A stretch of 64,000 bases of DNA from Niastella koreensis GR20-10. Lineage in GTDB: Bacteria; Bacteroidota; Bacteroidia; Chitinophagales; Chitinophagaceae. Of this stretch, positions 5,180 to 34,381 are shown one piece after another. Below the pieces are notes generated by a model, which ran no database searches, was not told the DNA's origin, and saw only the letters and a list, made by a program, of their open reading frames with translations. The position numbers and the translations under genes are program-made. The stretch covers positions 5,096,744 to 5,160,743 of the forward strand of contig NC_016609.1 in assembly GCF_000246855.1 (NCBI RefSeq). The letters are read 5' to 3'. Numbering within the stretch: position 1 is the stretch's first letter; every line of letters starts with the position of its first letter.

Positions 5180-6309
5180 GCATCCAACGGTCATTGTTAT
5201 TTAAATCACTGGTGGCGCCGTTTTACCGGCAGAACGCGGCGTTGTTATGTTTCGTGTATTATATAATGACCCTGGGCGTAGGCAGAGCCAACGGAGTTGG
5301 GATGCTGGAATATCATTACGCGTTGATCAGGGGAATGCTTACTGCCCCTTCTTTTTTAATAACGGTATTGGCCTTGTGGCTGGCCTATGCCATCAAGTGC
5401 GCCCAGTTTATTGCCAGCAGCCTGCACAAGCCGGCGTTCTCTTTCCTATATCAGTTATTATTAGTAGAACCAAAGAAGGTATACCGCCTGCTGCTGCAGG
5501 TACAGCTGATGTTGTTGTTGCCGGTTTTGTCGTACCTCATCTTCGTAATGGGTATTGGTTTTCACCAACACTGGTACCTGCCTGCTACTCTGGCATTGCT
5601 GTTCAATATAATCCTTTGTGTGAGCGGCGCGGGTTGGTACCTGTACCTTTTACAAAGACCCGGCGCTGTTCCTCTCCAGGTAAAATGGAAATGGCCATCC
5701 ATCCTGAAGCGCAAATACTACGTTAGCTTTCTGCTGCGCTATGTGCTGGAGAAAGGCAAGATGTTGTTTCTTGTCACTAAATTATATAACTGTGCTGCAT
5801 TGTATTTAATGCTGGCCGGTCGCGACCCATCCCGTCATTCCGATATTCGCATGATGGCCCTTTTCTTCAGCGCCGGTATGCTGGGCCATGGCATCCTGGT
5901 TCACCGGTTAAAGGAGTTAGAAAACAAGGGCATGTCATTTTATCGCGGACTACCGGTTTCAATAAGCCGCCGGTTTGCCCAGTATTGTTTATTTTATTGC
6001 TGTTTGTTTCTTCCCGAGGTCATCACCATTGCAGCCCGCACTCCCTCCTGTTTACTGTATGAGGAAGCGGGGTTCTTTATCTTCTTTGGCTTTGGCATTC
6101 TGTTATTGCTCAACAGTCTTCAGTTGTACAATTATCCCAACCTGAAGAGCTACCTGGTAAATGTAACCCAGCTGTTCTTTGCCGTTATCATAGCCATGGT
6201 ATGCCGGCAACTGTATGCCCTTTCCATCATTTTCTTTGCGTTGGCGATCATCCTGTTCTTCTACCGGTATTACCGGTTCGAACCGCAGCAAAACCCGGAT
6301 CTATTATAA
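5176..6309 (+). CDS. Polytopic membrane protein, probable permease partner of the ABC ATPase
   Basis: 377 aa with roughly eight or more hydrophobic segments (for example about residues 19-34, 50-68, 105-130, 134-155 and several in the last 130 residues). No recognisable domain motif is present. The start overlaps the ATPase stop by four bases, the standard signature of an ABC ATPase-permease pair. I infer that it forms the membrane channel of that transporter. The C terminus is short and charged. It ends one base before the stop of the convergent permease gene on the minus strand, with no room for a terminator. No family name can be given with confidence. Confidence 0.75.
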   Translation: MSIQRSLLFKSLVAPFYRQNAALLCFVYYIMTLGVGRANGVGMLEYHYALIRGMLTAPSFLITVLALWLAYAIKCAQFIASSLHKPAFSFLYQLLLVEPKKVYRLLLQVQLMLLLPVLSYLIFVMGIGFHQHWYLPATLALLFNIILCVSGAGWYLYLLQRPGAVPLQVKWKWPSILKRKYYVSFLLRYVLEKGKMLFLVTKLYNCAALYLMLAGRDPSRHSDIRMMALFFSAGMLGHGILVHRLKELENKGMSFYRGLPVSISRRFAQYCLFYCCLFLPEVITIAARTPSCLLYEEAGFFIFFGFGILLLLNSLQLYNYPNLKSYLVNVTQLFFAVIIAMVCRQLYALSIIFFALAIILFFYRYYRFEPQQNPDLL

Positions 6310-6310
6310 T

Positions 6311-8707
6311 CTATTCGGCTCTTAAACTCTTAACCGGATTGGCCACGGCGGTTTTGGCGCAATGCACGCTGATAAGGCTAAAGGCCAAAGCCGCTACTGC
6401 TGCCAGCACCAGTAAATAAGGAACGATACTTTGTTGTATACGGTAGGCAAAATTCTGTAAAAGATGCTCAGTGGCTATATATGCCAGCGGCCAGGCAATT
6501 ACATTGGCAATGACAATAAGCCAGGCATATTCTTTCAAAAACAACATTATAATACTAATTGAATTGGCGCCTAACACCTTGCGCACTGCCACTTCTTTCA
6601 TTCGTTTATTGAGCGTAAACGCCACCACACCCAATATGCCCAGCAATACTATTATCAGATTTAATACCGTGGCCACATCGGCGGCTGTTTTCAATTGCAG
6701 TTCCGATCTGTAAATGGCTTCAAACTTTTCATCCATGAAGCTATAGTCAAAAGGTGCATTGGGCGACATTTTTCGCCAGTGCGCCTTTACATCATCGAGG
6801 GTTTTGGCAAGATTAGTGGTGTTTAATTTTACCGCCAGGTAGCGGTAATTCTTCGTTATTTTAGGATGTGCAAAACCTACCGGCCCTATCTTGTCCTGCA
6901 TGGAAGAAAAATTATAATCCCCTACAACGCCACCGATCGTTATAGGCCCAACAGGGCTTTCAATTTTTTGCCCCACTGCATTTTCACTCGTCAATCCCAA
7001 CTCTTTTACAGCCGTCTCATTCAGTACTATGTCACCATTGGCAGGCGACAGGAACGTACCGGCCTTCATATGCATGCCAAACGTTTTTGCATAATCTTCG
7101 TCTGCCGTTGTAATGGGTAAATTCACCTGTTTGGTTTTATCGGTCCTTCCTGGCGGATAGAGGATGATCCTCCCAAACGGTGTTTTTTCCGGCACATCAA
7201 AAGTCAGGGTAACATGTTGAACCTGCGGCACCTGCAGCAGCTCCTGTTTAATAGCCTCCATCTTTAACACGCCTGCGGTGTCCCATTGTTTGGGAAAAGC
7301 CGTAATAACCAGCACCTGTTCTTTATTATATCCTAGGTCTTTGTTGAAAATATAGCGTACCTGTTTACTCAGGTTCAGCGCACAAATAAAGACCAGGATA
7401 GCCAATGAAAACTGCACCAGTAACAGCACGCGTTTTAACCCCAGTCCGCCTTTTGCTGCATCAATTTTTCCTTTTACTGCCTGTATCAGATTGGTGCTGC
7501 TTAGCACGAACGCAGGATATATCCCCGCCAGCAAACCGATCAGGAGCACCAGACCTGCTATCTGAAGGTATTCTTTGATCCCAAACATCCAAACGGGTTT
7601 CAGGGTAGCGTTCAGTACTTTTGAAAATACCGGGATAAGTAATTGATAAAAGAACAACGACACGATCGCTGCTATACTTGTAAGGATCATCGCCTCTAAC
7701 AGGAATTGCAGTACTACCTGCTTCTTTACACTGCCAAAAGTTTTACGAAGTCCTATTTCTTTTAAGCGATAAGTAGAGGTGCCTATATTGATATTTACAT
7801 AATTGATGATAACCATCAACAAAATAAACAGGGCTATGGTAGACAAAAGCGTCACCATCTTGTTAACAGCGCCATTGTTGTCTTTGAGATAATAATTTTT
7901 AACCGGTACCACATTGGCGTGAATGTTCTTCCAGATAAAATCCGACGAGTACTTTTTCATCAGCCTGTCCAACGCTGCATTCACCGCCTTCACCGTTACG
8001 TCCGGTTTCAACTCAATAAAGCTTACTTCGTTTACATTATCCCAACCTACGGCAGGATCGCCCATGCTGTAATACCGGTTACCGGTAGTGGGCACATAAA
8101 CGCCATACACATCATTTATTAACTGGGTAACTGTATTGTAAGGTATATCTTTTAATACGGCACTCACTACATACTCCTGGGTAACCCCGGCTACCGTTGT
8201 TTGAATGCTAAGCGGTTTACCAATGGCATCGGGTGTACCAAACAACTTGCGGGCAAACTTTTCCGTGATCACCGCTGAATTATTACTGGTAAAAGCATGG
8301 CCTTTATCGCCATACAACAGGGGGAAACCATACATCGATACCAGTGTGGTATCACAGATGGCAATGTCTTCTTTAAAATGTTTATCGCCTGCCGACACCA
8401 CATTGGTCACCGGGTTGAACCGGTAATAATTGGCCACCAGGTCGGGATATTCTTCTTTTATCGCTTTTGCCCAGGGCGAAAGCGCCACGATCTCCGATCC
8501 CATGTCCTTTTCCTTCCAGGCGGTTTTAATATAATACTGCCGGTCTGCATGGCGAAGGTTACTATTCACCCCTTCCTGACCCAGTACATAAATTCCAATG
8601 ATCAGGGAAAAAGTGATCCCTATGGAAAGGCACAGGATATTGATGGCAGAAAACAGCTTGTGCTTTGTAAAATGGCGAAAAGCTATAACAAAATAGTTTC
8701 TGAGCAT
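6311..8707 (-). CDS. MacB/FtsX-family ABC transporter permease
   Basis: The frame is open to 8755, but the ATG at 8707 gives the standard family start MLRNYFVIAFRHFTKHK, so I chose it (798 aa). The layout is N-terminal TM helix, long periplasmic MacB-type core, three TM helices, a second periplasmic core and three final TM helices with an FtsX motif (EVAVRKVLGAN). The equivalent EIGLRKTFGS occurs after the first half, so there are two FtsX repeats. Such Bacteroidota proteins work with a separate ATPase and use mechanotransmission to move peptides, lipoproteins or antimicrobials rather than forming a channel. No cognate ATPase is adjacent on the same strand; the ABC ATPase at 4547 is convergent. 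Partner and cargo are unknown. Confidence 0.85.
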   Translation of the reverse strand: MLRNYFVIAFRHFTKHKLFSAINILCLSIGITFSLIIGIYVLGQEGVNSNLRHADRQYYIKTAWKEKDMGSEIVALSPWAKAIKEEYPDLVANYYRFNPVTNVVSAGDKHFKEDIAICDTTLVSMYGFPLLYGDKGHAFTSNNSAVITEKFARKLFGTPDAIGKPLSIQTTVAGVTQEYVVSAVLKDIPYNTVTQLINDVYGVYVPTTGNRYYSMGDPAVGWDNVNEVSFIELKPDVTVKAVNAALDRLMKKYSSDFIWKNIHANVVPVKNYYLKDNNGAVNKMVTLLSTIALFILLMVIINYVNINIGTSTYRLKEIGLRKTFGSVKKQVVLQFLLEAMILTSIAAIVSLFFYQLLIPVFSKVLNATLKPVWMFGIKEYLQIAGLVLLIGLLAGIYPAFVLSSTNLIQAVKGKIDAAKGGLGLKRVLLLVQFSLAILVFICALNLSKQVRYIFNKDLGYNKEQVLVITAFPKQWDTAGVLKMEAIKQELLQVPQVQHVTLTFDVPEKTPFGRIILYPPGRTDKTKQVNLPITTADEDYAKTFGMHMKAGTFLSPANGDIVLNETAVKELGLTSENAVGQKIESPVGPITIGGVVGDYNFSSMQDKIGPVGFAHPKITKNYRYLAVKLNTTNLAKTLDDVKAHWRKMSPNAPFDYSFMDEKFEAIYRSELQLKTAADVATVLNLIIVLLGILGVVAFTLNKRMKEVAVRKVLGANSISIIMLFLKEYAWLIVIANVIAWPLAYIATEHLLQNFAYRIQQSIVPYLLVLAAVAALAFSLISVHCAKTAVANPVKSLRAE

Positions 8708-22102: not shown

Positions 22103-23188
22103 TCAAAAATGCCCCACTTTCCACCACGCCATACTTCCTGGTTTTCTTTCATCGGTAGCTCTTACCATTAATGTATCGCCATTATTCAAATCCCCAAACA
22201 CCTCTAATCCTTTGTCGGTCGACATACCCTGCCGCACATCCACCCAGGCGGCTTTGCCGTCTTTTACTTTTATCACAAACCTGCGCTCCTGGTTGGTAAC
22301 AACGGCAGTGGGTGGCAGAATAAAGGAATTTCCCGTTCGTTGCAAGCCTAGTTTTACATAGGCGAAAGAACCGGTTTTGAGTTCGCGGCTGCTGTTGTCG
22401 AAAACATATTCCCATAACTCCGTTCTGGTTTGCGGGTCTATGCTTTCGCTCTTGCGGGTGAGGGTGGCCTGGAATAATTTATTGGGAAATGCATCTACTC
22501 TGAAATTGGCCGTCTTCGACACAGCGCCCGATGCCACATACAACTCAGGCACTGCTACCCGCAGGCGCAATTTATTATTTCGTTGTACGGTTAAGATCGC
22601 CTGGTTATTGCCAACCAGGGCGCCGCGGTCTGCATTCCTTGCGGTCACTACGCCATCGAAGGGCGCGGTAAGCACCAGGTACCCGGCCACTTCTTTATAG
22701 GAACGGGCCAGTTGCCGAGATGCTTCGTAACTGGCGCTGTCTGCGAGGTATTGATTGCGGCTGCGTTCCAGGTCAACAGGCGCTACAATGCCCGGTGTTT
22801 TTGCCTGCGATGCTTTTGACAACCGTTGGTATACATCGGCGCTGCTCATGTATTTTGCTTTCGCCGCCTGTAACGATGCCTGAAACTCCGCATACTTCGT
22901 TTGCAGTTCAGGCGCCTCAATAATGGCCAGTGTTTGTCCCTGGCGCACTTTATCGCCCATATCAACTTTCAGGTCTTTTACATAACCGGGCACCCGGGCA
23001 AACAACGCTGCCTGTTCATACGGCAGCAATTCCGCAGGCAGTTCAATATTCTTGGTCACATTGGTATCGTGCAGTACAAAAACGGGAACGGTATCGAGGG
23101 CGTTGGCGGGGGCAGCAACAGGCAATGGGGCTTTGCTTTCACAAGCGGTCAATACAACTATTCCTGCTACTGCAATAAAATATTTCAT
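22103..23188 (-). CDS. RND efflux periplasmic adaptor lipoprotein (HlyD/AcrA type)
   Basis: 361 aa. The lipoprotein signal has its Cys in VVLTACESK (about residue 16). A biotinyl-lipoyl-like half motif (VPGYVKDLKVDMGDKVRQGQ) is followed by an alpha hairpin (about 95-150), the returning lipoyl half (APFDGVVTARNADRGALVG) and a beta-barrel domain. It bridges the inner-membrane pump and outer-membrane channel. It is last in a tolC-RND-adaptor operon, 15 bases after the pump gene. The substrate is unknown; the AraC-type regulator upstream and the hemerythrin/VOC operon under the same motif suggest a chemical-stress response (inference). Confidence 0.92.
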   Translation of the reverse strand: MKYFIAVAGIVVLTACESKAPLPVAAPANALDTVPVFVLHDTNVTKNIELPAELLPYEQAALFARVPGYVKDLKVDMGDKVRQGQTLAIIEAPELQTKYAEFQASLQAAKAKYMSSADVYQRLSKASQAKTPGIVAPVDLERSRNQYLADSASYEASRQLARSYKEVAGYLVLTAPFDGVVTARNADRGALVGNNQAILTVQRNNKLRLRVAVPELYVASGAVSKTANFRVDAFPNKLFQATLTRKSESIDPQTRTELWEYVFDNSSRELKTGSFAYVKLGLQRTGNSFILPPTAVVTNQERRFVIKVKDGKAAWVDVRQGMSTDKGLEVFGDLNNGDTLMVRATDERKPGSMAWWKVGHF

Positions 23189-23203: not shown

Positions 23204-26200
23204 TTATTGTTCATTAAAATTTTTGCTGTTCGCATCATCGGGGTCGAGCGATGCAGACACATAATTTCTTTTTCCAACCGCGTAATGATATACCTGTGGC
23301 AAAAAGAATAATACACTCAGCGTTGAACACACCAATCCGCCAATAACGGCAATCCCTAACGGCGCCAGCTGATCGCCACTGCCGCCCAGCCCAATTGCCA
23401 TGGGCAGCATACCGGCGATCATGGCGAGGCTTGTCATCAGAATGGGCCGCAACCTGCTTTCCGAGGCAACCAGGTAAGCGGTGCGAACATCGCCTGCTTT
23501 TCTTTGCACTTCAGCTGCCGTTATAAACAATACCGCATTGGCAATGGCAACTCCTATTGCCATAATACAACCCATGTACGATTGAATGTTCAGGGTTTTG
23601 CCGGTAAGCAACAGGAACAGCAGGGAACCTGCTATTACCGCCGGGATCACCGACAGAATGCTAACAGCAATGCGGAAAGACTGAAAAAATACCGTCATTA
23701 ATAAAAAGATCACTACCACCGCTACCAGCAATCCAAACTGTAAACTGCTCAGCGTATCCTTTAATAATTCCGGCTGGCCACGCAATATTATTTTAGCGCC
23801 TTTGGGAACCGGCGCATGGCTAATTATCGTGTTTACTTTTTTAAACGCACCGCCCAGGTCGCGACCCTGCACATTGGCCGTAATAGTAATATACCGCTGC
23901 TGGTTCAGGCGATCGTACTCACCCGGCATGGTGGTGCGTTTCCAGCTGGCCACTTCATTCAGTAAATGCAGGTTGCCGTTATCGGCAGCCACCGGGATCA
24001 TTTCCAACTGGGTGGTATTGTTCATCCGGTATTCAGGATATTGCACCTGTATGATATATGCGGTGCCCGTTGTTTTATCGAGCCAGTAGGCGGGTGAGGT
24101 AAAGCGGCTTGATGAAGTGGCTTCAGCAGTTGACCTGGTTATTTGATCGGTAGTGAGATTTAATTGTGCGGCTTTTACCCTGTCAACATCTATCTTGATG
24201 GCCGGATAATTAAGCGGTGTGGCAATCTGCACATCTTTCAGGTATGGCACCGCCGATAACTGTTCATACAACCAGCTGGCCGTTTTCTTACCTTCTTCCA
24301 GGTTTTTATTTACTACGGCAATCTCGATGGGATTGGTAGAACCGAGGTTCAACACCTGCTCGGAAAGATCTCCCGGTTCAAATGAAATTTTCGCCGCGGG
24401 AATTGCTTTGGCAACTGCGGCCCGTAATTGATCTTTGAATGCATTTAACCCGATAGCACCTGGTTTCAATTTGATCTTTGTAACGGATTCATGCGGTCCG
24501 CCCGTCCACAAGTGAATAAGGTTAACCGGGAAACTCGAAGGCTGGGTTCCCACAAAGGCAGAAGAGATCAGCACGTTCTCTTTACCGGCAATTTTATTTA
24601 TTGCTCCCAAGAGGGTACGGGTAGCATCCTCCGTTCTTTCCATCCTTGTTCCGGCAGGCAACCGCAAACGAACCTGCGCTTGCCCGGTATCGCTGGCCGG
24701 GAATAGTTCTGTACCTGTTGCAGTAAATAATCCCACAACAGCTGCAATAGACAATACTACAAACAACACAGTCAATACACCTCCACTGCCCTGCAGGCGG
24801 CGGCCATTTTGCGCATACTTATTTTTAAACCGGTCAAAGGCGCCGGATGTTTTTTCCTTGTTATTCAAATGATGCTTCATCAGCCAGTTTCCCATAACCG
24901 GTACAAATGTTTGTGATAACAGGAAAGAAGCGATCATGGCAAAACCTACCGCCAGCGACAGGGGCAGGAACATAGCCCGCGGCACCCCGTTCATAAACAA
25001 CGCCGGAACAAAAACCGCCAGGATGCTTAACAGGATAAGCAATTTGGGACCGGCAATTTCTTTCGTGGCATCAGCAATGGCCCTGGCCTTGCTTTTTCCC
25101 ATTTCCATATGACGGTGGATATTCTCAATGGTCACCGTTGCTTCATCAACCAGGATGCCAACCGATAAAGCCAGTCCGCCCAGCGTCATGATGTTAATGG
25201 TTTGCCCGGTGAGGTATAACAAAGTGGCCGAGGTAAGCAAGGCCAGCGGAATGGTAAGCACAACAATGAGCGCCCCTCTCCTGTCGCCCAGGAACAACAA
25301 CACCATCAAACCGGTGAGCAAAGCGCCTAAACCTCCTTCGAACAATAAACTTTTCAGCGCGCTGATCACATAACCCGATTGGTCAAATTCGTACGACACT
25401 TTGATATCATCGGGAATGGCCGCCTGCATTTCGGGCAACGCTGCTTTAACCCGCTGCACTACGTCCCAGGTACTGGCGTCTGCCCGTTTGGTAACCGGAA
25501 TATATACCGAACGTTTGCCGTTCACCAGGGCATAACTGGTGGTTACATCACTCCCCAGCGACACATTGCCAATATCCTTTACATACACCGCAGGGCCGCT
25601 GCCCAGCTGCAGGGGCATGTTCTGCAGGTCCTGCAGGCTTTCTATTACACTGTTTTGCGGAGTTATATAAGTACTATCGCCTATGCGTATGTTACCGGCC
25701 GGACTGATCGTATTTGTTTTTACCAATGCCTGCACTACCTGGTCGGGCGTTAAATGATAATTCCTGATCTTATCGGGATCAACGGTTACCAGCACCGTTT
25801 TCTGGTTACCGCCAAATGGCGGCGGCGCCGAAACCCCGGGCAGCGTAGAGAACATGGGACGCACCTTAAATAAAGCCAGATCGGAGATCTCACCCAGTGA
25901 CCGGGTTTCGCTGCTGAACACCAGTTGCCCCACAGGCACACTGCCTGCATCGAAACGGGTGATGAATGGCGGCACAGTACCCGGTGGCATAAAAGCCCGG
26001 GAACGATTTACATAGCCCACTACCTCAGCCATCGCCTGGCTCATATCTGTACCTTCATTAAATTCTATCTTAATAAGGGCCGCCCCCTGCACCGATCTGG
26101 AATCAACATACTTCACGCCGGTGATGTATAGAAAGTGATATTCATAATAAGAGGTGATAAACCCTTCCATCTGTTCGGGCGATAACCCGCCATACGGCTG

Positions 26201-26344
26201 GGCTACATATACTGTTGGCAAACCCAGCTTCGGGAAGATGTCTACCTTTGTATTGCGCACCGCCAGCCAGGAAAAGAACAGGATGGCGAAGATCGCTACC
26301 AGGATGGTGATGGGATGCCTTAATGCTGCTATAATGAGTTTCAT
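23204..26344 (-). CDS. RND efflux pump permease (AcrB/HAE1 type)
   Basis: 1046 aa, the usual length for the AcrB/MdtB/CusA superfamily. The first TM helix is near residues 10-28, followed by a large periplasmic porter region, six TM helices (about 335-530), a second porter region and the last TM block. The helix IV segment contains GGLALSVGILVDEATVTIEN, with an acidic residue in the expected proton-relay position (VDEA). The second half carries IMAIGVAIANAVLF. It lacks the Met/acidic pattern expected for a clear metal exporter, so a drug, solvent or organic substrate is more likely than Cu/Ag. It is preceded by the TolC gene with a gap of eight bases. Confidence 0.93.
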   Translation of the reverse strand: MKLIIAALRHPITILVAIFAILFFSWLAVRNTKVDIFPKLGLPTVYVAQPYGGLSPEQMEGFITSYYEYHFLYITGVKYVDSRSVQGAALIKIEFNEGTDMSQAMAEVVGYVNRSRAFMPPGTVPPFITRFDAGSVPVGQLVFSSETRSLGEISDLALFKVRPMFSTLPGVSAPPPFGGNQKTVLVTVDPDKIRNYHLTPDQVVQALVKTNTISPAGNIRIGDSTYITPQNSVIESLQDLQNMPLQLGSGPAVYVKDIGNVSLGSDVTTSYALVNGKRSVYIPVTKRADASTWDVVQRVKAALPEMQAAIPDDIKVSYEFDQSGYVISALKSLLFEGGLGALLTGLMVLLFLGDRRGALIVVLTIPLALLTSATLLYLTGQTINIMTLGGLALSVGILVDEATVTIENIHRHMEMGKSKARAIADATKEIAGPKLLILLSILAVFVPALFMNGVPRAMFLPLSLAVGFAMIASFLLSQTFVPVMGNWLMKHHLNNKEKTSGAFDRFKNKYAQNGRRLQGSGGVLTVLFVVLSIAAVVGLFTATGTELFPASDTGQAQVRLRLPAGTRMERTEDATRTLLGAINKIAGKENVLISSAFVGTQPSSFPVNLIHLWTGGPHESVTKIKLKPGAIGLNAFKDQLRAAVAKAIPAAKISFEPGDLSEQVLNLGSTNPIEIAVVNKNLEEGKKTASWLYEQLSAVPYLKDVQIATPLNYPAIKIDVDRVKAAQLNLTTDQITRSTAEATSSSRFTSPAYWLDKTTGTAYIIQVQYPEYRMNNTTQLEMIPVAADNGNLHLLNEVASWKRTTMPGEYDRLNQQRYITITANVQGRDLGGAFKKVNTIISHAPVPKGAKIILRGQPELLKDTLSSLQFGLLVAVVVIFLLMTVFFQSFRIAVSILSVIPAVIAGSLLFLLLTGKTLNIQSYMGCIMAIGVAIANAVLFITAAEVQRKAGDVRTAYLVASESRLRPILMTSLAMIAGMLPMAIGLGGSGDQLAPLGIAVIGGLVCSTLSVLFFLPQVYHYAVGKRNYVSASLDPDDANSKNFNEQ

Positions 26345-26352
26345 ATAATCAG

Positions 26353-27744
26353 TTACAATTGGTCAGTGAACAGGGCCAGGTTTCCTTTGGCAATGGCAAT
26401 AGACAATAACGACCGCCATAATTGCAATTTCGCCGTGGCATTGCTCAATTCGGCCTTTGTTAATTCATATTGCGACTGGTACAGGCGGGTATAATCGATC
26501 AGGCCCGCTTCATAACTCAGCTTCAACCCTTCGTATACATCGGTGGCGATTTGCAGCTGCACCGGCGTTTTTGCCGCAATTTTCGCATCCTGCCGGTATT
26601 GCAGGGTGGCGTTTTCTATTTGTTTGGAAATATCCAGCCGGGCCTGGGCCAGCCGCGCTTCATCTGATCGCAATAGTGACTGGTATTGTTTTTTCTTTAT
26701 GCTGAACCGGCTGAACTGTAACACCGGGAAACTCAGTTGCAATCCGATGCCGGCATTGGTTCTTGACAAGCCCCAGCCATCACTTTTATTCACTACCCCA
26801 CTGGCATTAACACCCGAGCCCCGGGCATACAGATTACCCCACACATCCAACTGCGGCACCCAGCCACGTTGTATTTCGCGTAAACCAGCTTCCGTTGTAT
26901 GCTTTTGAGCTTCCAGGTTTAATAAATACGGGTGATTGCTGATGGCGGAAGAATCTTCAATACTTAATGAAGGTTTGAGTATGGAATCTGTGAGCACCAT
27001 TTTCTCTGCTGTTACCTCCATACCTGTTAAGCGGGTCAGTTCCTCCAGTTTTTGCAGGTATGTTTTCTCCGTTTGCAGGTAATCTATTTCGGTTTGAATG
27101 ATCACCGACTGAAACTGCGCCGTATCAATGCCGGGTTTTAACCCGTTCTTTGCCAATACCAGCGATTGTTCAAGACTTACTTTGTACCTGCCCGAAACGG
27201 CTTCAGAAATGCGAAGCACCTGTTTCAAATAAAGTGCTTCCAGGTATACATTAACAGCTGCGTATTGGTATTGAAATAATTGTTCATTATAAGCGGCATT
27301 TGCCTGTTTGTACTGAGCAGCCGCCTTTTCAATAGCAGCATTGCGCTGCCCAAAGGTGATCGGGTTCCATTTTACCAGGGCGCCCAGGGCAGTACCGGGA
27401 ATAAAGTTCAGATCATTGGTTGCCGAAGGCGGACCGCTGATGGGCAGTAAAAACCCCGGGTAACTCATGCCGGTGATGTTGTTAAAAGTGGCTACGTTCA
27501 CCTGGTAACCTGCAGTAAGGTCAGGCACCAGGCTGTTTTTGGCCAGGGAAATGTTTTCCTTAGCCGCTTCGGTCTGTTGACGGTAAGCCTCCAGTTGCGG
27601 CAGGTTATGCGCTACCTTTTCCAGCGTTTCCTTAATGGAAAGGGTTACCGGTTGCGTCATACCACGAAAAACGGGTAAGCAAAAAACAGCAAAGAAGATA
27701 ACAGCAAAATTAATTCGTATCCTTACTGGTTCTGGTATAAACAT
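26353..27744 (-). CDS. TolC-family outer-membrane efflux channel
   Basis: 463 aa with an N-terminal signal sequence (hydrophobic residues about 12-26). Two OEP repeats each begin with long coiled-coil helices (for example TLEKVAHNLPQLEAYRQQTE and the second helix LYQSQYELTKAELSNATAKL). The conserved motif NSLVPDLTAGYQ is followed by the beta strand portion. It forms the trimeric exit duct for the RND pump encoded next. It is the first gene of the efflux operon. A 26-bp motif shared with the VOC operon lies 117 bases upstream of the ATG. Confidence 0.92.
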   Translation of the reverse strand: MFIPEPVRIRINFAVIFFAVFCLPVFRGMTQPVTLSIKETLEKVAHNLPQLEAYRQQTEAAKENISLAKNSLVPDLTAGYQVNVATFNNITGMSYPGFLLPISGPPSATNDLNFIPGTALGALVKWNPITFGQRNAAIEKAAAQYKQANAAYNEQLFQYQYAAVNVYLEALYLKQVLRISEAVSGRYKVSLEQSLVLAKNGLKPGIDTAQFQSVIIQTEIDYLQTEKTYLQKLEELTRLTGMEVTAEKMVLTDSILKPSLSIEDSSAISNHPYLLNLEAQKHTTEAGLREIQRGWVPQLDVWGNLYARGSGVNASGVVNKSDGWGLSRTNAGIGLQLSFPVLQFSRFSIKKKQYQSLLRSDEARLAQARLDISKQIENATLQYRQDAKIAAKTPVQLQIATDVYEGLKLSYEAGLIDYTRLYQSQYELTKAELSNATAKLQLWRSLLSIAIAKGNLALFTDQL

Positions 27745-27861
27745 GCTGGGTTAAGTTTTTGGTTGTCCAGGCACCTGTATAAACAATAATTGCGGACCGG
27801 GCGTTACCGCCTGCATCCGCAATCATTCATAGCCAATGTTCGGAATTAGTCCACCAATTTC

Positions 27862-27887
27862 ATGGTATATTTGAAAATAGTATGGTA
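27862..27887. promoter_or_regulatory. Putative AraC-type operator upstream of the efflux operon
   Basis: ATGGTA-N14-ATGGTA (half-sites at 27862 and 27882, 20 bases apart, same orientation). The full 26 bases match the site at 29385-29410 at 24 positions. Direct half-sites two helical turns apart are the classic layout for AraC-family binding. The AraC-type gene at 29423-30265 is the obvious candidate regulator. Confidence 0.65.
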
Positions 27888-27925
27888 TTAACTATAAATT
27901 AAACCAATACTGCATTTGTCTGCTA

Positions 27926-28141
27926 CTACCCATTTTGCCAGGCCGGTTCACTCTTGCTTTCATAATCACTAAATGCTTTTTCAAGTCCTGTAAGCACTTC
28001 AGCAGATGTTTCAAAAAGCGCTTTTGCCGCCGGGTCATTTACTTTTTTAATATCATCCCGTAAATGATCTATCAATACCCTGAATTCATTTTTTATATTG
28101 GCGGTATGTGCCAATGGATCGTTTGTATTCAAGCTTTTCAT
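27926..28141 (-). CDS. Small acidic helical protein, unknown function
   Basis: 71 aa, predicted all-helical, no signal peptide. Recognisable stretches are LIDHLRDDIKKVNDPAAKAL and ETSAEVLTGLEKAFSDYE. I do not recognise a named family. It is 26 bases after the hemerythrin-domain gene on the same strand and is probably the last gene of the VOC-hemerythrin operon. The regular composition and operon position argue that it is real. Confidence 0.65.
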   Translation of the reverse strand: MKSLNTNDPLAHTANIKNEFRVLIDHLRDDIKKVNDPAAKALFETSAEVLTGLEKAFSDYESKSEPAWQNG

Positions 28142-28167
28142 ATACTGATATTTTGTTATAAAATTTA

Positions 28168-28881
28168 TTAAACAGCCGGGGTAAACTGGGACAGCTCATA
28201 AATGCCCAATTGCTTTTCTATTTCGGCCACTTTACCCACCATCATGGCAAAGCCATCTTCCCCAAATAATTTTTGTTCATTCTTTTCAAATTCTTCGCCC
28301 AGGGAATCATATTCATGGCTGGAAACGATCTTCCTGAACGCGGGGAACAGGACTGTATCTTCCCGGGCTTCATGCGGGCGGTACATTACATTGAACGCGG
28401 TGAGCGCATCGAGTAGTTGTTTGCTATCGTCTTCGGTTATCGGGGAGGTTTTCGACAGGTGCATGATCTTGTCGGTGAGTGTTCTTCCTGCCTGGTGCTG
28501 TTGCAACAGGGTTGTCACCAGGTCGGTCAGCTGGTTGGCTTTTTTAAACCGCGGAAACAGGTAATTCTCTTCCTGTTTCTCATGATAGTCTTCCACGAAT
28601 TGACGAACGATGGCGGCAGAGCTGGCAACAGCTGTTAAGGGAAAAGCAGTTTTATTAACCAACTGCGTACGGCAGTGATCATAGATCAGCAGGATCCGGT
28701 TCAGCAACCCGTGTTCCTGCATCAGGTCTTCGGGCGGTGATACCTCCTGCCCTTCCTCCCCACCCTTTTCACCACAGGAAGGAATTAAATTGATGGCCAG
28801 TGAACCGGCAACGGTTATCAACCCGGTTTTAATAAATTTCTTCCTGTCATAAAGTTCCGCATTGAACTGGGGAGTTTCCAT
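28168..28881 (-). CDS. Hemerythrin-domain protein with N-terminal export/lipoprotein signal
   Basis: 237 aa from the ATG at 28881; a GTG two codons earlier is less likely. Residues about 13-35 form a signal region (RKKFIKTGLITVAGSLAINL) that ends in IPSCGEKGG, so it is probably exported and may be a lipoprotein. The hemerythrin-like helical bundle follows with candidate iron ligands in LMQEHGLLNR, YHEKQEENYLFP, QQHQAGR and MYRPHEAREDTVLFP. Such domains bind a di-iron centre and sense or scavenge O2, NO or peroxide. It lies 28 bases after the VOC gene in the same operon. Exact function is open; the HxxxE/HxxxxD pattern is good evidence for the fold. Confidence 0.85.
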   Translation of the reverse strand: METPQFNAELYDRKKFIKTGLITVAGSLAINLIPSCGEKGGEEGQEVSPPEDLMQEHGLLNRILLIYDHCRTQLVNKTAFPLTAVASSAAIVRQFVEDYHEKQEENYLFPRFKKANQLTDLVTTLLQQHQAGRTLTDKIMHLSKTSPITEDDSKQLLDALTAFNVMYRPHEAREDTVLFPAFRKIVSSHEYDSLGEEFEKNEQKLFGEDGFAMMVGKVAEIEKQLGIYELSQFTPAV

Positions 28882-28909
28882 TTTCACAGTATTTAAAATG
28901 AGTAATCAA

Positions 28910-29314
28910 TTATTGTTGAGCAGGCTCAAACAACTCAATCAGGTTGCCCGAGGGATCGATAAGCAGCACCTGTTTACCGCCTACGCCCATTACGATCTCG
29001 TTGCGGAAGGCGGCGCCTGAGCTTTTTAATCTGTCATATACATGCTCCAGGTTACTCACCTGGATCTGAAAGCGATTCCAGCCTCCCGGGGTTGGAACAG
29101 TTCCATCGGGCATCGATTGCCCTGCCCCGCCGGCGCCGGGCTGGTTAATAAATAATTGCAGATCCCCCAGCGTTAAATGGGCAAAAGCACCTTTTACCTG
29201 TAATCTTACTTCAAAACCAAGCAGGCGGGTATAAAAAGCAACAGAGGAGTCTATATCCTTAACAATATAACGGACCGCTACCACTTGTTTATGAGTTGCA
29301 GATTGTGGTTCCAT
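28910..29314 (-). CDS. VOC-superfamily (glyoxalase/dioxygenase-like) protein
   Basis: 134 aa cytoplasmic protein with the two beta-alpha-beta-beta-beta modules of the vicinal oxygen chelate fold: residues about 10-55 (VVAVRYIVKDIDSSVAFYTR) and about 80-130 ending in the conserved DPSGNLIELFEP, whose Glu is a typical metal ligand. It may be a glyoxalase, bleomycin-resistance-like or ring-cleavage protein; the ligand set is too generic to decide. It is first in a three-gene operon with a hemerythrin protein. The AraC-type motif lies 70 bases upstream and the regulator gene just beyond it. Confidence 0.88.
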   Translation of the reverse strand: MEPQSATHKQVVAVRYIVKDIDSSVAFYTRLLGFEVRLQVKGAFAHLTLGDLQLFINQPGAGGAGQSMPDGTVPTPGGWNRFQIQVSNLEHVYDRLKSSGAAFRNEIVMGVGGKQVLLIDPSGNLIELFEPAQQ

Positions 29315-29384
29315 ACCTGTTAAATTTTATGTGGGTATGAGGTGGTAGCTTCCCGTAAAGTTACTGCAATTTAACAGTCGTGGT

Positions 29385-29410
29385 ATGGTATATATGAAAA
29401 TAGCATGGTA
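29385..29410. promoter_or_regulatory. Putative AraC-type operator upstream of the VOC-hemerythrin operon
   Basis: ATGGTA-N14-ATGGTA (half-sites at 29385 and 29405), 24 of 26 bases identical to 27862-27887. It sits between the AraC-type regulator gene and the VOC gene, 12 bases beyond the regulator stop. Confidence 0.65.
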
Positions 29411-29422
29411 CAGTTAACTTCA

Positions 29423-30265
29423 TTATTTTTCATTTTTCATTTCCACCTGCCGTCTGAAAGCCTGGGGTGTTTGCCCGATAATGCGTTTGAAGTATTTTAT
29501 AAAATGCGATGCATCTATAAAATCCAGGGTGCCTGCAATTTGTGAAACGGTATTGTTGGTATACAACAGCAGGCGTTTGGCTTCACCCGTAATAAACTCT
29601 GCCAGCACTTCTGCGGAAGCCTGGTCAACAGCCCTGCGGCAGGCCGCATTCAGGTTTTGCGGCGTGGTGTTCAATTGCTCGGCATAAAACTGTACAGAAT
29701 TTTTTACCACCGAACCGGCCTGTAATAATTCAAGGAAGGACTGATACAGGTCTGACCGCAACTCCGATGAGCGGATCATTGGTTTGGCAATCTCAAGCAC
29801 CTTGGCCAGCAAGGCTTTTAACAAACCTTCAATAATGTGAAAACTCTGCTCACTGTTTACAGCATATTCTTTTGCCAGCAATTGAAACAGCAGATCGATG
29901 GTTTGGTTATCGCCAATACTTAAACAATGCTGACTGCTTAGTTTCGTAAGCAGCGTTTTCAACTCATTGTCGAGGCTGTTTTGGATAAAGTCCTTTTTAA
30001 TAATGGCCACAAAACCGTCTGGTTCACCCGACAAATCGAAATGATGAGTTTGCTCCTGTCGAACAAAAAAGATAACCGGTGGCGTTACTTCAAATTTGCG
30101 GGAATCGATAAAATGAAAGCCGCTTCCACCGGAGAGATAGATTATTTCAAAATAATTATTATGCTTATGCGGCGTGGTCTTCCTTACCTCTTTGCGAAAA
30201 AGCGAGATCTTGAATGACTCTGCGGGTTGCGTTTTATCTTTTATGTCGATACTGGAAGCGTTCAT
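29423..30265 (-). CDS. AraC-family transcriptional regulator
   Basis: 280 aa. The N-terminal cupin-like sensor domain (about residues 20-110) has HKHNNYFEIIYLSGGSGFHF and EQTHHFDL. The C-terminal AraC DNA-binding domain has two helix-turn-helices: the first around VQFYAEQLNTTPQNLNAACR, the second around SQIAGTLDFIDASHFIKYFK with the signature end GQTPQAFRRQ. It is followed on the same strand by two operons carrying identical direct-repeat motifs in front of them. It is therefore the likely regulator of both the VOC-hemerythrin genes and the RND efflux pump (inference). The inducer is unknown. Confidence 0.92.
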   Translation of the reverse strand: MNASSIDIKDKTQPAESFKISLFRKEVRKTTPHKHNNYFEIIYLSGGSGFHFIDSRKFEVTPPVIFFVRQEQTHHFDLSGEPDGFVAIIKKDFIQNSLDNELKTLLTKLSSQHCLSIGDNQTIDLLFQLLAKEYAVNSEQSFHIIEGLLKALLAKVLEIAKPMIRSSELRSDLYQSFLELLQAGSVVKNSVQFYAEQLNTTPQNLNAACRRAVDQASAEVLAEFITGEAKRLLLYTNNTVSQIAGTLDFIDASHFIKYFKRIIGQTPQAFRRQVEMKNEK

Positions 30266-30623: not shown

Positions 30624-31111
30624 TGGTGATCATTGTATCAGCCTATGAAAAATATGCAGTGGAGGGGTTCAACCTGCAGGTAGCAGACTATATCTTAAAA
30701 CCATTCTCGTTCGACCGCTTTCTAAAAGCGTGTAACCGGGCAGCAGAATTATTCCGGGTGCGGCAGCCGGCCGCAGTCTCAGAATCAGTAAAGAACAATG
30801 ATCTTTTCGTTCACATAGATTATTCACTTGTGAGGGTTGTTGTTGCTGACATCAACTATATCCAAAGCCTGAAAGACTATATTAAAATATACCTGTCCTC
30901 CACAACAATACCTGTTGTAACCCGCATGCCGTTAAAGACTATTGAAGCAAAGCTGCCTGCCGGCGCTTTTATCCGCACGCACAAATCCTTCCTGGTGGCC
31001 ATTTCAAGCATCACCACCATCAAACGTGAAGTGGTTTGTATTGGCACTACAGAGATCCCCATAAGCGAAACGTTCAGGGAAAACATTAACAGGATGCTGA
31101 GATCTCATTAA
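30611..31111 (+). pseudogene. 5'-truncated LytTR-type response regulator
   Basis: The frame opens right after a TAG at 30608 and has no ATG; a GTG at 30626 could start a 161-aa product. Residues 1-40 match only the last third of a receiver domain (PPLVIIVSAYEKYAVEGF then DYILKPFSFDRFLKA, with the conserved Lys). The rest is a full LytTR DNA-binding domain (IQSLKDYIKIYLS, MPLKTIEAKLP, FIRTHKSFLVAI). The phospho-acceptor Asp and about 85 N-terminal residues are missing, so phospho-control is lost. No sensor histidine kinase gene is nearby. I infer a remnant created by the same event that cut the DUF6223-like gene. The DNA-binding part could still be functional. Confidence 0.75.
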
Positions 31112-31160: not shown

Positions 31161-31490
31161 ATGGGACTTACCAAGGCAGAAATATTCACCGATAAGCAGA
31201 ACAAGCTGGCGCAAATGATGAAGGCCCTGGCGCATCCGGCCCGCATAGCCATCATCCAGTACCTGATAAGATCACAGGCCTGTGTATGTGGCGACCTGGT
31301 TGATGAATTAGGCCTGGCCCAGGCAACCATTTCGCAACATTTAAAAGAGCTGAAAAACGCCGGGTTGATCCAGGGCACCATCGAAGGCACCAGCGTTTGT
31401 TATTGCATCGATCCCAAAGTGTGGAAACAATATAAAGAATCCTTCGATTCGTTCTTTGTGGCCTATAAGAACAAGGATTCCTGCTGTTAA
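31161..31490 (+). CDS. arsR: ArsR-family arsenic-responsive repressor
   Basis: 109-aa winged-helix repressor. The recognition helix lies around [20 protein letters not shown] (residues 50-69), and the N-terminal dimer helix contains [15 protein letters not shown]. Candidate metalloid ligands are Cys41 and Cys43 (ACVCGDLV, in the helix where classical ArsR has ELCVCDL). Further Cys80 and Cys82 (SVCYC) and a C-terminal CysCys (DSCC) could also bind As(III). Binding should release the DNA. It is followed by arsM and flanked by two copies of the presumed operator. Confidence 0.93.
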
Positions 31491-31508
31491 ATTTTTTTGG
31501 CTTCATTC

Positions 31509-31524
31509 ATCGCAATATTGCGAT
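31509..31524. promoter_or_regulatory. ArsR operator in front of arsM
   Basis: ATCGCAATATTGCGAT is a perfect 16-bp palindrome 21 bases before the arsM start. It differs from the arsR-proximal site at one base. It implies that arsM and the following genes have their own ArsR-controlled promoter. Confidence 0.85.
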
Positions 31525-31545
31525 ATAACAATAAAAGAAAACAAC

Positions 31546-32382
31546 ATGGAAACTCAGGACCAAATAAAGGAAATGGTAAAGCAAAAGTATGCGGAGATCG
31601 CTTTACAGGATAAAGAGCAAAACCAAAGCTCCTGCTGCGGTTCCGGCTGCTGCAGCACCGAAGTGTATAATATCATGAGCGACGATTATACCCAGCTGGA
31701 AGGGTACAACGCCGATGCCGATCTGGGCCTGGGCTGCGGCTTACCCACGCAGTTTGCACAAATCAAAAAAGGCGATGTGGTGATTGACCTCGGCAGCGGC
31801 GCTGGTAACGACGCCTTTATTGCCCGTCATGAAACAGGTGAAACCGGCAAAGTGATCGGCATCGATTTTACCCCGGCCATGATAGAACGCGCCCGGCAAA
31901 ACGCAGAAGCAAGAGGTTTCAACAATGTAGAGTTCAGACAGGGCGATATCGAGAAAATGCCCATCACCTCCAATGTGGCCGATGTAATTGTAAGCAATTG
32001 TGTGTTGAACCTGGTGCCCAACAAAGATGGCGTGTTCAAAGAAATTTTCAGGGTATTAAAACCCGGCGGGCATTTTTCCATTTCAGATATTGTGCTGGCA
32101 GGCGAACTGCCAACAGCATTAAAAACAGCCGCTGAAATGTACGCCGGTTGCGTGGCGGGCGCCATTCAAAAAGAAGTGTACCTGGAGTTGATTGAGGTAA
32201 ATGGCTTCAGCAACATCACCATTCAAAAAGAAAAGCCCATCATCATTCCCGATGACATTTTAATGAATTATTTAAACGAAGCGGAATTAGCCAGTTTTAA
32301 AAATGGCCAAACCGGCATCTTCAGTATAACTGTTTATGGAGAAAAATCAGCTTCCTGCTGCGGGCCTGATTGCTGCTCCTGA
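31546..32382 (+). CDS. arsM: Arsenite S-adenosylmethionine methyltransferase
   Basis: 278 aa from the ATG at 31546; the frame is open upstream but overlaps arsR and the operator. It methylates As(III) with SAM to mono-, di- and trimethyl arsenicals. The SAM-binding motif is VIDLGSGAGNDAF (79-91). Cys64, Cys152 and Cys202 match the conserved arsenite-binding cysteines of ArsM; the 50-residue spacing of the last two is as in characterised enzymes. A Cys-rich N terminus (SSCCGSGCC, 28-36) and C terminus (CCGPDCCS, 271-278) could load metalloid. It sits behind an ArsR palindrome and 33 bases before the aquaporin gene. No arsenite exporter of ArsB/Acr3 type or ArsC is present. Confidence 0.93.
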   Translation: METQDQIKEMVKQKYAEIALQDKEQNQSSCCGSGCCSTEVYNIMSDDYTQLEGYNADADLGLGCGLPTQFAQIKKGDVVIDLGSGAGNDAFIARHETGETGKVIGIDFTPAMIERARQNAEARGFNNVEFRQGDIEKMPITSNVADVIVSNCVLNLVPNKDGVFKEIFRVLKPGGHFSISDIVLAGELPTALKTAAEMYAGCVAGAIQKEVYLELIEVNGFSNITIQKEKPIIIPDDILMNYLNEAELASFKNGQTGIFSITVYGEKSASCCGPDCCS

Positions 32383-32415
32383 TATTCTTTCCCTTTACAC
32401 CTTGAGACAATTTGC

Positions 32416-33075
32416 ATGATAAAAAAATCTGTTTGCGAATTTATAGGAACATTTGCCCTGGTATTTTGCGGTACAGGAGCTGTGATAATTGATAAGGAAA
32501 GTGGCGGCGCCGTTTCTCATGTTGGGGTTGCTATTACGTTTGGATTGATAGTAATGAGCATGATCTATGCATTAGGGGATATTTCGGGCGCCCATCTCAA
32601 TCCGGCTGTTAGCATTGCTTTTGTATTCGCGGGCAGACTGCCAATGAATAACCTGGCCGTTTATATAGTGAGCCAGATAGCCGGCGCTTTTGCCGCAAGC
32701 GGATTATTAAGATTTCTGTTTCCATTCAATGAGTTCCTTGGCGCCACATTACCGGCTGGCACAGCCATGCAATCTTTTGTTCTTGAAATTATACTTACAT
32801 TTCTGTTAATGCTGGTTATTATCAATGTTGCCACCGGCTCCAAAGAACAGGGATTATTTGCAGGCATAGCTATCGGCTCGGTAGTATTGCTGGAAGCCAT
32901 GTTTGCCGGCCCCATCTGTGGCGCATCCATGAACCCTGCCCGGTCACTGGCCCCGGCCATAGTATCCGGCCATACTGAACATCTCTGGGTATACCTGCTG
33001 GCGCCGGTTATTGGCGCAGCATTGGCTATCCCCTTATGGAAATATCTGACTTCTAAAAATTACACCTCAAAATGA
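32416..33075 (+). CDS. MIP-family aquaporin/aquaglyceroporin in the arsenic locus
   Basis: 219 aa, six TM helices. Both NPA boxes are intact (HLNPAVS, 62-64; SMNPARS, 173-175) and the selectivity-filter Arg follows the second (Arg176). In arsenic operons such channels (AqpS-like) move As(III) or methylated arsenicals across the inner membrane, which would complement ArsM in the absence of a dedicated pump. That role is inferred from the neighbourhood; the channel family is certain. Its last codon overlaps the start of the metallophosphoesterase gene by four bases (ATGA), so both are made together. Confidence 0.92.
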   Translation: MIKKSVCEFIGTFALVFCGTGAVIIDKESGGAVSHVGVAITFGLIVMSMIYALGDISGAHLNPAVSIAFVFAGRLPMNNLAVYIVSQIAGAFAASGLLRFLFPFNEFLGATLPAGTAMQSFVLEIILTFLLMLVIINVATGSKEQGLFAGIAIGSVVLLEAMFAGPICGASMNPARSLAPAIVSGHTEHLWVYLLAPVIGAALAIPLWKYLTSKNYTSK

Positions 33076-33845
33076 AAATTGCATTATTCAGCGACATCCA
33101 TGCCAATCTGCCTGCATTAGAAGCGTTCTTTAAAAGTGTAGAAGCCCAAAAACCAGATGCCATTTACTGCCTCGGCGACCTGGTTGGTTATAACATCTGG
33201 CCCAATGAAGTAATAAACGAGATCAGGAAACGCGGCATACCAACCATTGCCGGCAACTATGATTTTGGCATTGGAAGGTCCATTGACGATTGCGGCTGTG
33301 CATACAAAACAGATACGGAAAAAGCCAATGGAGCCGTATCCATTTCATTTACCAATGAAATAGTAAAGGATGAAGAACGAAAGTATTTAAGAACGTTACC
33401 GGCACATATAAAAGTTGAATTTCAACTAAACAACGACAAACTGAACCTGCTGCTGGTACATGGCAGTCCGCGTAAAATAAATGAATACCTGTTTGAGGAC
33501 CGGGAAGAAAAAAGCATGATACGGATTATGCTGGATGCAGATGCCGACATTATGTGTTTTGGCCATACACACAAACCTTATCACCGGGTATTAACTATTG
33601 CTGAAAATGATAAAGAACATTACAGGCATGCCATCAATATTGGTTCTGTTGGCAAACCCAAGGATGGCGACCCACGGGGCGGTTATGTAATACTTCATAT
33701 CAATGACAACAGCAGTATACATGATAAAAACTCCATAAAGGTTGAATTTATCCGGTTTGAATACGATGTTGAAAAAGCAGCCAAAGCTGTCGAAGACAGC
33801 CGCTTACCCAATGCTTATGCTGAAAGTTTACGGAAGGGCGTATAA
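33072..33845 (+). CDS. Calcineurin-like metallophosphoesterase (YfcE/MJ0936-like)
   Basis: 257 aa. The metal-binding motifs of the metallophosphoesterase superfamily are all visible: SDIHAN (residues 7-12), LGDLVGYNIWPNEV (34-47), AGNYD (60-64), LVHGSPR (about 133) and FGHTHKPY (about 163). The YfcE-type subgroup hydrolyses phosphodiesters or small phosphorylated metabolites in the cytoplasm. It carries an unusual CGC (DDCGCAY, about residue 74-76) next to the active-site segment. Translational coupling to the aquaporin gene places it in the arsenic operon. Its role there is unknown. Confidence 0.88.
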   Translation: MKIALFSDIHANLPALEAFFKSVEAQKPDAIYCLGDLVGYNIWPNEVINEIRKRGIPTIAGNYDFGIGRSIDDCGCAYKTDTEKANGAVSISFTNEIVKDEERKYLRTLPAHIKVEFQLNNDKLNLLLVHGSPRKINEYLFEDREEKSMIRIMLDADADIMCFGHTHKPYHRVLTIAENDKEHYRHAINIGSVGKPKDGDPRGGYVILHINDNSSIHDKNSIKVEFIRFEYDVEKAAKAVEDSRLPNAYAESLRKGV

Positions 33846-33856
33846 ATGAATTAATT

Positions 33857-34381
33857 ATGAGTTCCTGCACATCTCAAATATGGGATCAACACCGCGAAAA
33901 ACTGAAAGCCTTTATTTGCAACAAAGTAAATGGCGATGACAGTTGTGAAGACATCCTGCATGATGTATTTGTGAAAATATCAGAGAACGAAGAACGTATT
34001 AAATGGCTTGAAAAGCCGGCTTCGTATGTAATAAAGATGGCGCAAAACGCCGTGATCGATCATTACCGGTTAAAAAAGAAAACACCGCAACTGTCCGAAA
34101 CAGTTTGTACCAGCGAAGAAGAACAGCAATCAGCTATAAGGCTGGCTGATTGCTGCCTTTTATCATTTATAAAAGCGTTACCGCCACTATATAGTGAGGC
34201 CTTAATGCTGGCAGAACTCGAAGGGCTCTCACAAAAACAATTAGCCCAAAAACTGAATATTTCATATACGGGGGCAAAATCAAGGGTCCAGAGAGGTAGA
34301 AAAATGCTAAAGGAGGCCATTCTTGCCTGCTGCCCCTATCAGTTTGATAAATACGGAAATATTATTGGCTGCTGTAAATAA
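33857..34381 (+). CDS. sigZ: SigZ-type ECF sigma factor
   Basis: 174 aa. Region 2 has DDSCEDILHDVFVKISEN and the -10-binding part ASYVIKMAQNAVIDHYR. Region 4 has the helix-turn-helix GLSQKQLAQKLNISYTGAKSRVQRGRKML. The extra C-terminal tail ending in KYGNIIGCCK matches the SigZ group and carries a CysCys. Additional Cys pairs (ADCCLL, ACCPY) could respond to thiol-reactive metalloids (inference). It starts 11 bases after the metallophosphoesterase and no anti-sigma gene is next to it. It may control further arsenic-response genes elsewhere in the genome. Confidence 0.85.
   Translation: MSSCTSQIWDQHREKLKAFICNKVNGDDSCEDILHDVFVKISENEERIKWLEKPASYVIKMAQNAVIDHYRLKKKTPQLSETVCTSEEEQQSAIRLADCCLLSFIKALPPLYSEALMLAELEGLSQKQLAQKLNISYTGAKSRVQRGRKMLKEAILACCPYQFDKYGNIIGCCK

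Follow-up and report, generated by a model that had tools for sequence, protein, structure and literature searches.

The window, a stretch of 64,000 nucleotides from Niastella koreensis GR20-10, contains two near-identical 26-bp sites that probably serve as operators for the product of the AraC-type gene at 29423-30265, a protein that would locally activate the two operons that the sites precede. Comparison of sequences points to a local AraC-type activator with a broadly conserved operator as the most likely basis of this regulon.

All genes and elements of the locus lie on the minus strand. The araC-type gene (29423-30265) encodes 280 amino acids with a cupin sensor and a double helix-turn-helix (HTH), as assigned by Pfam and a structure model. 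Located 12 nt past its stop codon is operator 2, TACCATGCTATTTTCATATATACCAT (29385-29410; weight-matrix score 39.8), which stands before genes for a VOC/glyoxalase-family protein of 134 amino acids (28910-29314; PF00903, 1e-12), a hemerythrin HHE protein of up to 239 amino acids (28168-28887; PF01814, 1e-17), and a 71-aa protein (27926-28141). The listed start codon of the hemerythrin gene is GTG, with an ATG two codons inward, and a lipobox-like IPSC is visible by eye in the N-terminal region of its product. The 71-aa protein has no match in Pfam or NCBIfam, and homologues occur in six of 294 family genomes, its own included. Operator 1, TACCATACTATTTTCAAATATACCAT (27862-27887; weight-matrix score 45.6), precedes genes for a TolC-type outer membrane protein (OEP) of 463 amino acids (26353-27744; PF02321, 7.6e-37), an RND permease (ACR_tran) of 1046 amino acids (23204-26344; PF00873, 1.4e-195), and a HlyD-type periplasmic adaptor of 361 amino acids (22103-23188; TIGR01730, 183 bits with a cut-off of 94.9). 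The order TolC-RND-adaptor, originally read from the letters of the DNA, agrees with these family matches.

On the opposite strand, adjoining araC, an arsenic-like cluster was recognized by eye at 31161-33845. It comprises an ArsR-type regulator, a Cys-rich methyltransferase resembling ArsM, an aquaglyceroporin-like channel, and a metallophosphoesterase, and it is followed by a sigma-factor-like gene at 33857 (also by eye). ArsR-like and similar methyltransferase frames also lie behind the RND operon of a Chitinophaga locus (L081). The frame at 30626-31111 resembles a LytTR response regulator whose N-terminal half is apparently missing (by eye); a Niastella relative (L221) has a longer LytTR-like frame next to a sensor-kinase-like frame, and the frame in the window is possibly a remnant of a lost two-component system.

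The sequence-only reading described the sites as ATGGTA-N14-ATGGTA, identical at 24 of 26 bases. Both match this formula with no mismatch, and they do indeed differ at two positions. The half-site formula was rejected as evidence in its own right, showing no enrichment in window or genome. With up to two mismatches, it matches nine times in the 64-kb window versus 6.6 expected, a count equalled or beaten in 22 of 100 shuffles. Genome-wide there are five exact copies, two of which are operators 1 and 2, and 90 copies with at most one mismatch. The reversed pattern is void as a control because ATGGTA-N14-ATGGTA is identical when reversed. The formula was therefore replaced by the whole 26-mer as the search pattern. 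When up to three mismatches are allowed, the 26-mer matches the 9.03-Mb genome twice, at its own pair, and the reversed control does not match; no further site was found elsewhere in the genome at this stringency, which makes the whole 26-mer specific. The operator pair is one of five pairs of 26-mers in the window with at least 24 identities. The other four (11774/52577, 16178/57093, 18623/59516, and 20710/61398) are spaced ~41 kb apart with their order kept, and perhaps reflect a duplicated gene cluster.

The gene upstream of operator 2 had been called AraC-like, and its product matches three Pfam profiles, HTH_18 (3.5e-16), HTH_AraC (6.1e-08), and AraC_binding (4e-06), each exceeding its curated cut-off. 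The C-terminal double HTH (residues 194-273) covers the full HTH_18 profile with 59.7 bits (cut-off 33.6), and the N-terminal cupin sensor matches AraC_binding with 27 bits (cut-off 21.1). In a structure model made from an alignment of 64 sequences (pLDDT 85.9), the sensor domain matches that of RhaR (TMt 0.78) and the DNA-binding domain matches AraC-type domains (for example, 3lsg_A, TMt 0.80). Ranked by E-value, the top fold matches are full-length members of this regulator family, with TM-scores of only ~0.3 because the domain angles differ. The protein falls below the cut-off of every NCBIfam equivalog. Its best match there, HpaA, covers the whole protein with 114.2 bits versus a cut-off of 274.65, and identity with this 4-hydroxyphenylacetate regulator was rejected on that score. 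Residues H33, H35, E40, and H74 are invariant in all 64 regulator sequences and could be metal ligands. Because His/Glu arrangements of this kind are common among cupin-type AraC sensors, no metal sensor is claimed.

The sequence-only reading had proposed asking whether the 26-mer accompanies this AraC orthologue in related genomes. A protein search of 294 family genomes, with at most eight candidates scored per genome, identified a regulator orthologue (>200 bits) in 19 of them. The 26-mer, counted at up to three mismatches, is present in 18 of these 19 genomes versus 7 of the 275 without an orthologue (Fisher p 3.6e-22, not corrected for the kinship of the genomes). Every one of the 21 sites in the 18 genomes lies within 1.3 kb of that araC gene. 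Each of the seven orthologue-less genomes has a single match with exactly three mismatches, and the reversed 26-mer matches 5 of the 294 genomes. The exceptional genome, G035, has two weaker sites that flank araC (15.4 and 13.5 bits; locus L094, on the same contig). Comparison in this way, together with a fixed distance to a promoter element described below, argues for the assignment of the sites to this regulator, which had initially been inferred from proximity and spacing.

The association extends across the phylum. Scanning a single genome for each species produced 194 confirmed relatives, the best 80 of which were analyzed; these loci span Chitinophaga, Niastella, Flavobacterium, Chryseobacterium, Sphingobacterium, Pedobacter, Dyadobacter, Runella, Roseivirga, Fulvivirga, Flammeovirga, and others. 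A weight matrix was built on 21 sites, the two weak G035 sites having been dropped from the 23 collected, and was applied with a threshold of 16 bits. Sites above this threshold are present in 76 of the best 80 loci versus 1 of 80 reversed loci. Thirteen of the 80 loci are the same contigs as in the 294-genome test, and some further loci are near-copies of one another; among the 67 loci outside those contigs, 64 have a site, and the three misses are Flammeovirga. In 73 of these best 80 loci, the site shares the strand of araC and falls within a range of -80 to +200 nt relative to the araC stop codon; 59 of the loci have it abutting that codon (-7 to +10 nt). The other seven consist of two with sites 0.9 and 1.2 kb downstream, one (L117) whose sole site is 2.5 kb off, on the opposite strand, and four with no site above 16 bits (L094, with its weak pair, and three Flammeovirga loci). 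Six loci have an additional site upstream of araC, facing away, and the extra upstream site is the same in score and position in L142 and L143. In a negative control using 11 loci of paralogues with 29-34% identity and 1.5-kb flanks, the maximum score was 5.5 bits.

The three Flammeovirga loci (L127, L131, and L140) have regulator orthologues on a long branch, with neither a nearby site nor a same-strand operon behind them; these regulators may have shifted to another operator or to other targets. A contig labelled Beijerinckiaceae (Pseudomonadota; L091) carries the araC gene with its operator and clusters with Bacteroidota rows, and is either mis-binned or the result of transfer. A looser pattern matched 44 of 49 genomes of named relatives, and the reversed pattern also gave 31 matches by our own count. 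Distant extra sites with three mismatches are indistinguishable from background; therefore, a wider regulon is not claimed.

In gene direction, the operator reads TACCAT-nn-TATTTTCAAATA-TACCAT. Conservation over 78 distinct sites is highest at ACC, TTTTCAAAT, and ACC; upstream flanks carry little information, and downstream flanks have a strong TTT block. The sequence-only reading had interpreted half-sites 20 bp apart as the footprint of an AraC-family protein. The repeats are present, but the longest conserved stretch falls inside the presumed 14-bp spacer. Because the central TATTTTCAAATA is conserved as strongly as the ends, the description as a pair of 6-bp half-sites around a spacer does not hold, and the site has three blocks instead. 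The starts of TACC, TTTTC, and TACC follow one another at intervals of 10 bp, equal to one turn of the helix, and we infer that the HTH motifs of a dimer would read three successive grooves. An RNA element or terminator was set aside, given that the site is a direct repeat that recurs before tolC away from araC.

The Bacteroidota -7 box has the consensus TAnnTTTG and is placed at -12 to -5 (PMC9723704). Counted as matching at five or six of its six defined letters, this box starts 21 nt past the operator at 36 sites and 22 nt past it at 31, together 67 of the 78 sites, with any other offset represented by at most 4 of the 78. If the box is taken as -12 to -5, the last base of the operator falls at -33 or -34 and the operator replaces the -33 box, a geometry by which the predicted layout is of the AraC/XylS class II activator type. 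In the window, a -7-like box, TAACTTTA (29356-29363; five of six defined letters), begins 22 nt after operator 2, with a predicted transcription start near 29351. A weak -7-like box, AACATTGG (27833-27840; four of six letters by hand count), begins 22 nt after operator 1, with a predicted start near 27828, and its weakness counts against the activator explanation.

This promoter geometry also bears on whether the same regulator and operator might work by repression, or by a switch between repression and activation, with derepression as the main event. AraC itself switches in this manner, a site overlapping the -33 region could equally block polymerase, and the -7 box is still well conserved in most loci. 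Nevertheless, no second conserved site was seen further upstream or downstream around the 78 sites, and the operator replaces the -33 box, as is the case at activated promoters. Neither observation settles the direction of control, and we regard repression as improbable.

The history of the two-operator arrangement was traced through relatives. The 26-mer of operator 1 is identical in L051, L052, L220, and L221. In the nearest relatives (L051, L220, and L221) it stands before tolC, and L052 has the order araC, chromate transporter, operator, then DoxX and tolC. Between araC and the operator, L053 has VOC and the 71-aa protein, and L054 has hemerythrin; in L052, L053, and L054 alike, the gap directly following araC contains no site. 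A hemerythrin gene lies directly behind the site in the distant locus L148. The proposed coupling of a VOC-hemerythrin operon and an RND pump in one regulon is supported by relatives for the RND operon, which has a site before it, but not for VOC or hemerythrin, which have none in L053 and L054, and for this reason the VOC-hemerythrin half looks lineage-specific. The arrangement of VOC, hemerythrin, and the 71-aa gene between two sites is confined to the window among the loci compared. The window is not alone in having two sites, as L220, from the same genus, likewise has a pair. Its site before tolC is perfect, and the one beside the araC remnant is decayed (25.0). The araC gene of L220 is broken (5962-6335), with only parts that match residues 1-30 and 182-271, out of frame; that both sites persist there counts against the activator explanation.

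These loci raise the alternative that only operator 1 is functional, operator 2 being a leftover of the ancestral position and the VOC-hemerythrin-71aa genes lying outside control. The absence of a site before VOC or hemerythrin in L053 and L054 is consistent with this scenario, as is the combination of decayed and perfect sites in L220. Operator 2 nevertheless scores 39.8, is followed by the better of the two -7 boxes, TAACTTTA, at the offset that other loci share, and occupies the usual position right behind araC, which makes its disuse unlikely. Four of the six genomes with the 71-aa protein have no araC orthologue above 200 bits. A hemerythrin match lies beside the 71-aa protein in two of these four (L222, and L224 in two pieces), a chromate-transporter-like frame is near it in L222 and L225, and a DoxX-like frame in L222 (both by eye). 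Given these neighbours, the hemerythrin segment is linked to the same partner pool as the regulator.

This pool was assembled from the 80 loci by collecting downstream genes on the same strand, the first within 400 nt of the araC stop and the next ones within 160 nt, with names taken from the Pfam result of one representative per family or from similarity to the window's proteins. The most common partners are DoxX (31 of the 80 loci), a CxxCH lipoprotein of ~160 amino acids (27), TolC (22), a chromate transporter (22), RND (21), adaptor (15), a TonB-type receptor (12), TauE (10), and PAP2 (9), followed by metallophosphoesterase-like proteins (5), amino acid permease (4), and multicopper oxidase, hemerythrin, and FMN reductase (2 each). 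Nine loci have no downstream gene under the distance rule, and in at least one of them, L072, a spurious frame masked the tolC-RND operon that is evident in L051 on the same contig. A quick tree of 64 regulators, with SH-aLRT support only and 19 of 61 branches open, requires at least 27 changes of the first downstream gene when the labels "none" and "other" are omitted. One Chryseobacterium row is placed among Sphingobacterium rows in this tree, which suggests transfer. It is very improbable that some other factor binds the 26-mer, or that the 26-mer is itself a promoter element, and that it neighbours araC only because the neighbourhood was inherited: although L220 retains a perfect site before tolC despite its broken araC, the 26-mer is at background level in the 275 family genomes lacking an orthologue, and the site stays with araC through those changes of downstream gene.

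If the AraC-type protein is an activator, its dimer, switched by a ligand in the cupin domain, would bind the operator with the proximal TACCAT lying over the -33 region. The protein would then recruit RNA polymerase by class II activation to the promoters of the VOC-hemerythrin-71aa and tolC-RND-adaptor operons. With two sites only in the genome, the regulon would be local, and it would serve to detoxify and export compounds at the cell envelope upon induction. The recurring partners (chromate transporter, DoxX, CxxCH lipoprotein, TauE, and RND) suggest that the signal may be a toxic oxyanion, a redox-active compound, or some small molecule of comparable kind; the toxic-molecule signal proposed in the sequence-only reading fits the gene content. 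Two specific signals were weighed but not adopted. Chromate was considered on account of ChrA (22 of 80 loci) and FMN reductase, which adjoins ChrA in two loci, but many loci are without both. Nitric oxide was considered from hemerythrin and the CxxCH lipoprotein. The latter has no match in Pfam, its CxxCH is invariant in 21 sequences, and its model (pLDDT 81.8) is helical, the last helix bearing the CxxCH. Cytochrome c' is a four-helix bundle whose CxxCH is likewise in the final helix. Several cytochromes c' are near the top of the lipoprotein's fold search, at E ~0.9 or worse and with unrelated bundles ranked equally high, a match too weak to indicate this signal.

Literature searches of titles and abstract openings produced, among the matches listed, nothing on this regulator, operator, or gene set, and a search with the operator letters gave no matches. 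Our impression is that, in environmental Bacteroidota, few AraC-family proteins have a known operator. A 26-bp site that is recognizable phylum-wide offers a ready regulon prediction for scores of genomes, and is also a candidate inducible promoter for studies of soil Bacteroidota. Shared control would link this RND pump, ChrA, DoxX, and TauE, transporters whose substrates are uncertain, and the search for a common inducer becomes a direct reporter experiment. A more speculative proposal, which we put forward tentatively, is that araC and the promoter-operator abutting its stop form a self-contained, portable control cassette of <1 kb that reached its range in Bacteroidota in part through horizontal transfer and, via its three-block operator, may confer one induction signal on whatever envelope-detoxification genes follow.

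The domain layout of the window's regulator is shared with AraC, RhaR/RhaS, and HpaA, which are local regulators of the AraC/XylS group with cupin sensors. RhaR has a similar sensor fold (TMt 0.78), and HpaA is the best NCBIfam match along the whole protein. In AraC and RhaS, too, the operator is a direct repeat adjoining the -35/-33 region. The operators of these known regulators consist of two 17-bp half-sites, whereas the operator in the window has a period of 20 bp and three conserved blocks, and we know of no other AraC-family protein with a three-block operator. AraC, RhaR, RhaS, and HpaA each serve a sugar or aromatic pathway, unlike the regulator described here, whose predicted targets encode transporters and detoxification-type proteins. 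Control of a TolC-RND pump by a member of the AraC superfamily is found also in enterobacteria, where MarA/SoxS/Rob-type proteins control RND pumps. MarA and SoxS have no sensor domain and many scattered sites, whereas the regulator in the window bears a cupin domain and has two local sites.
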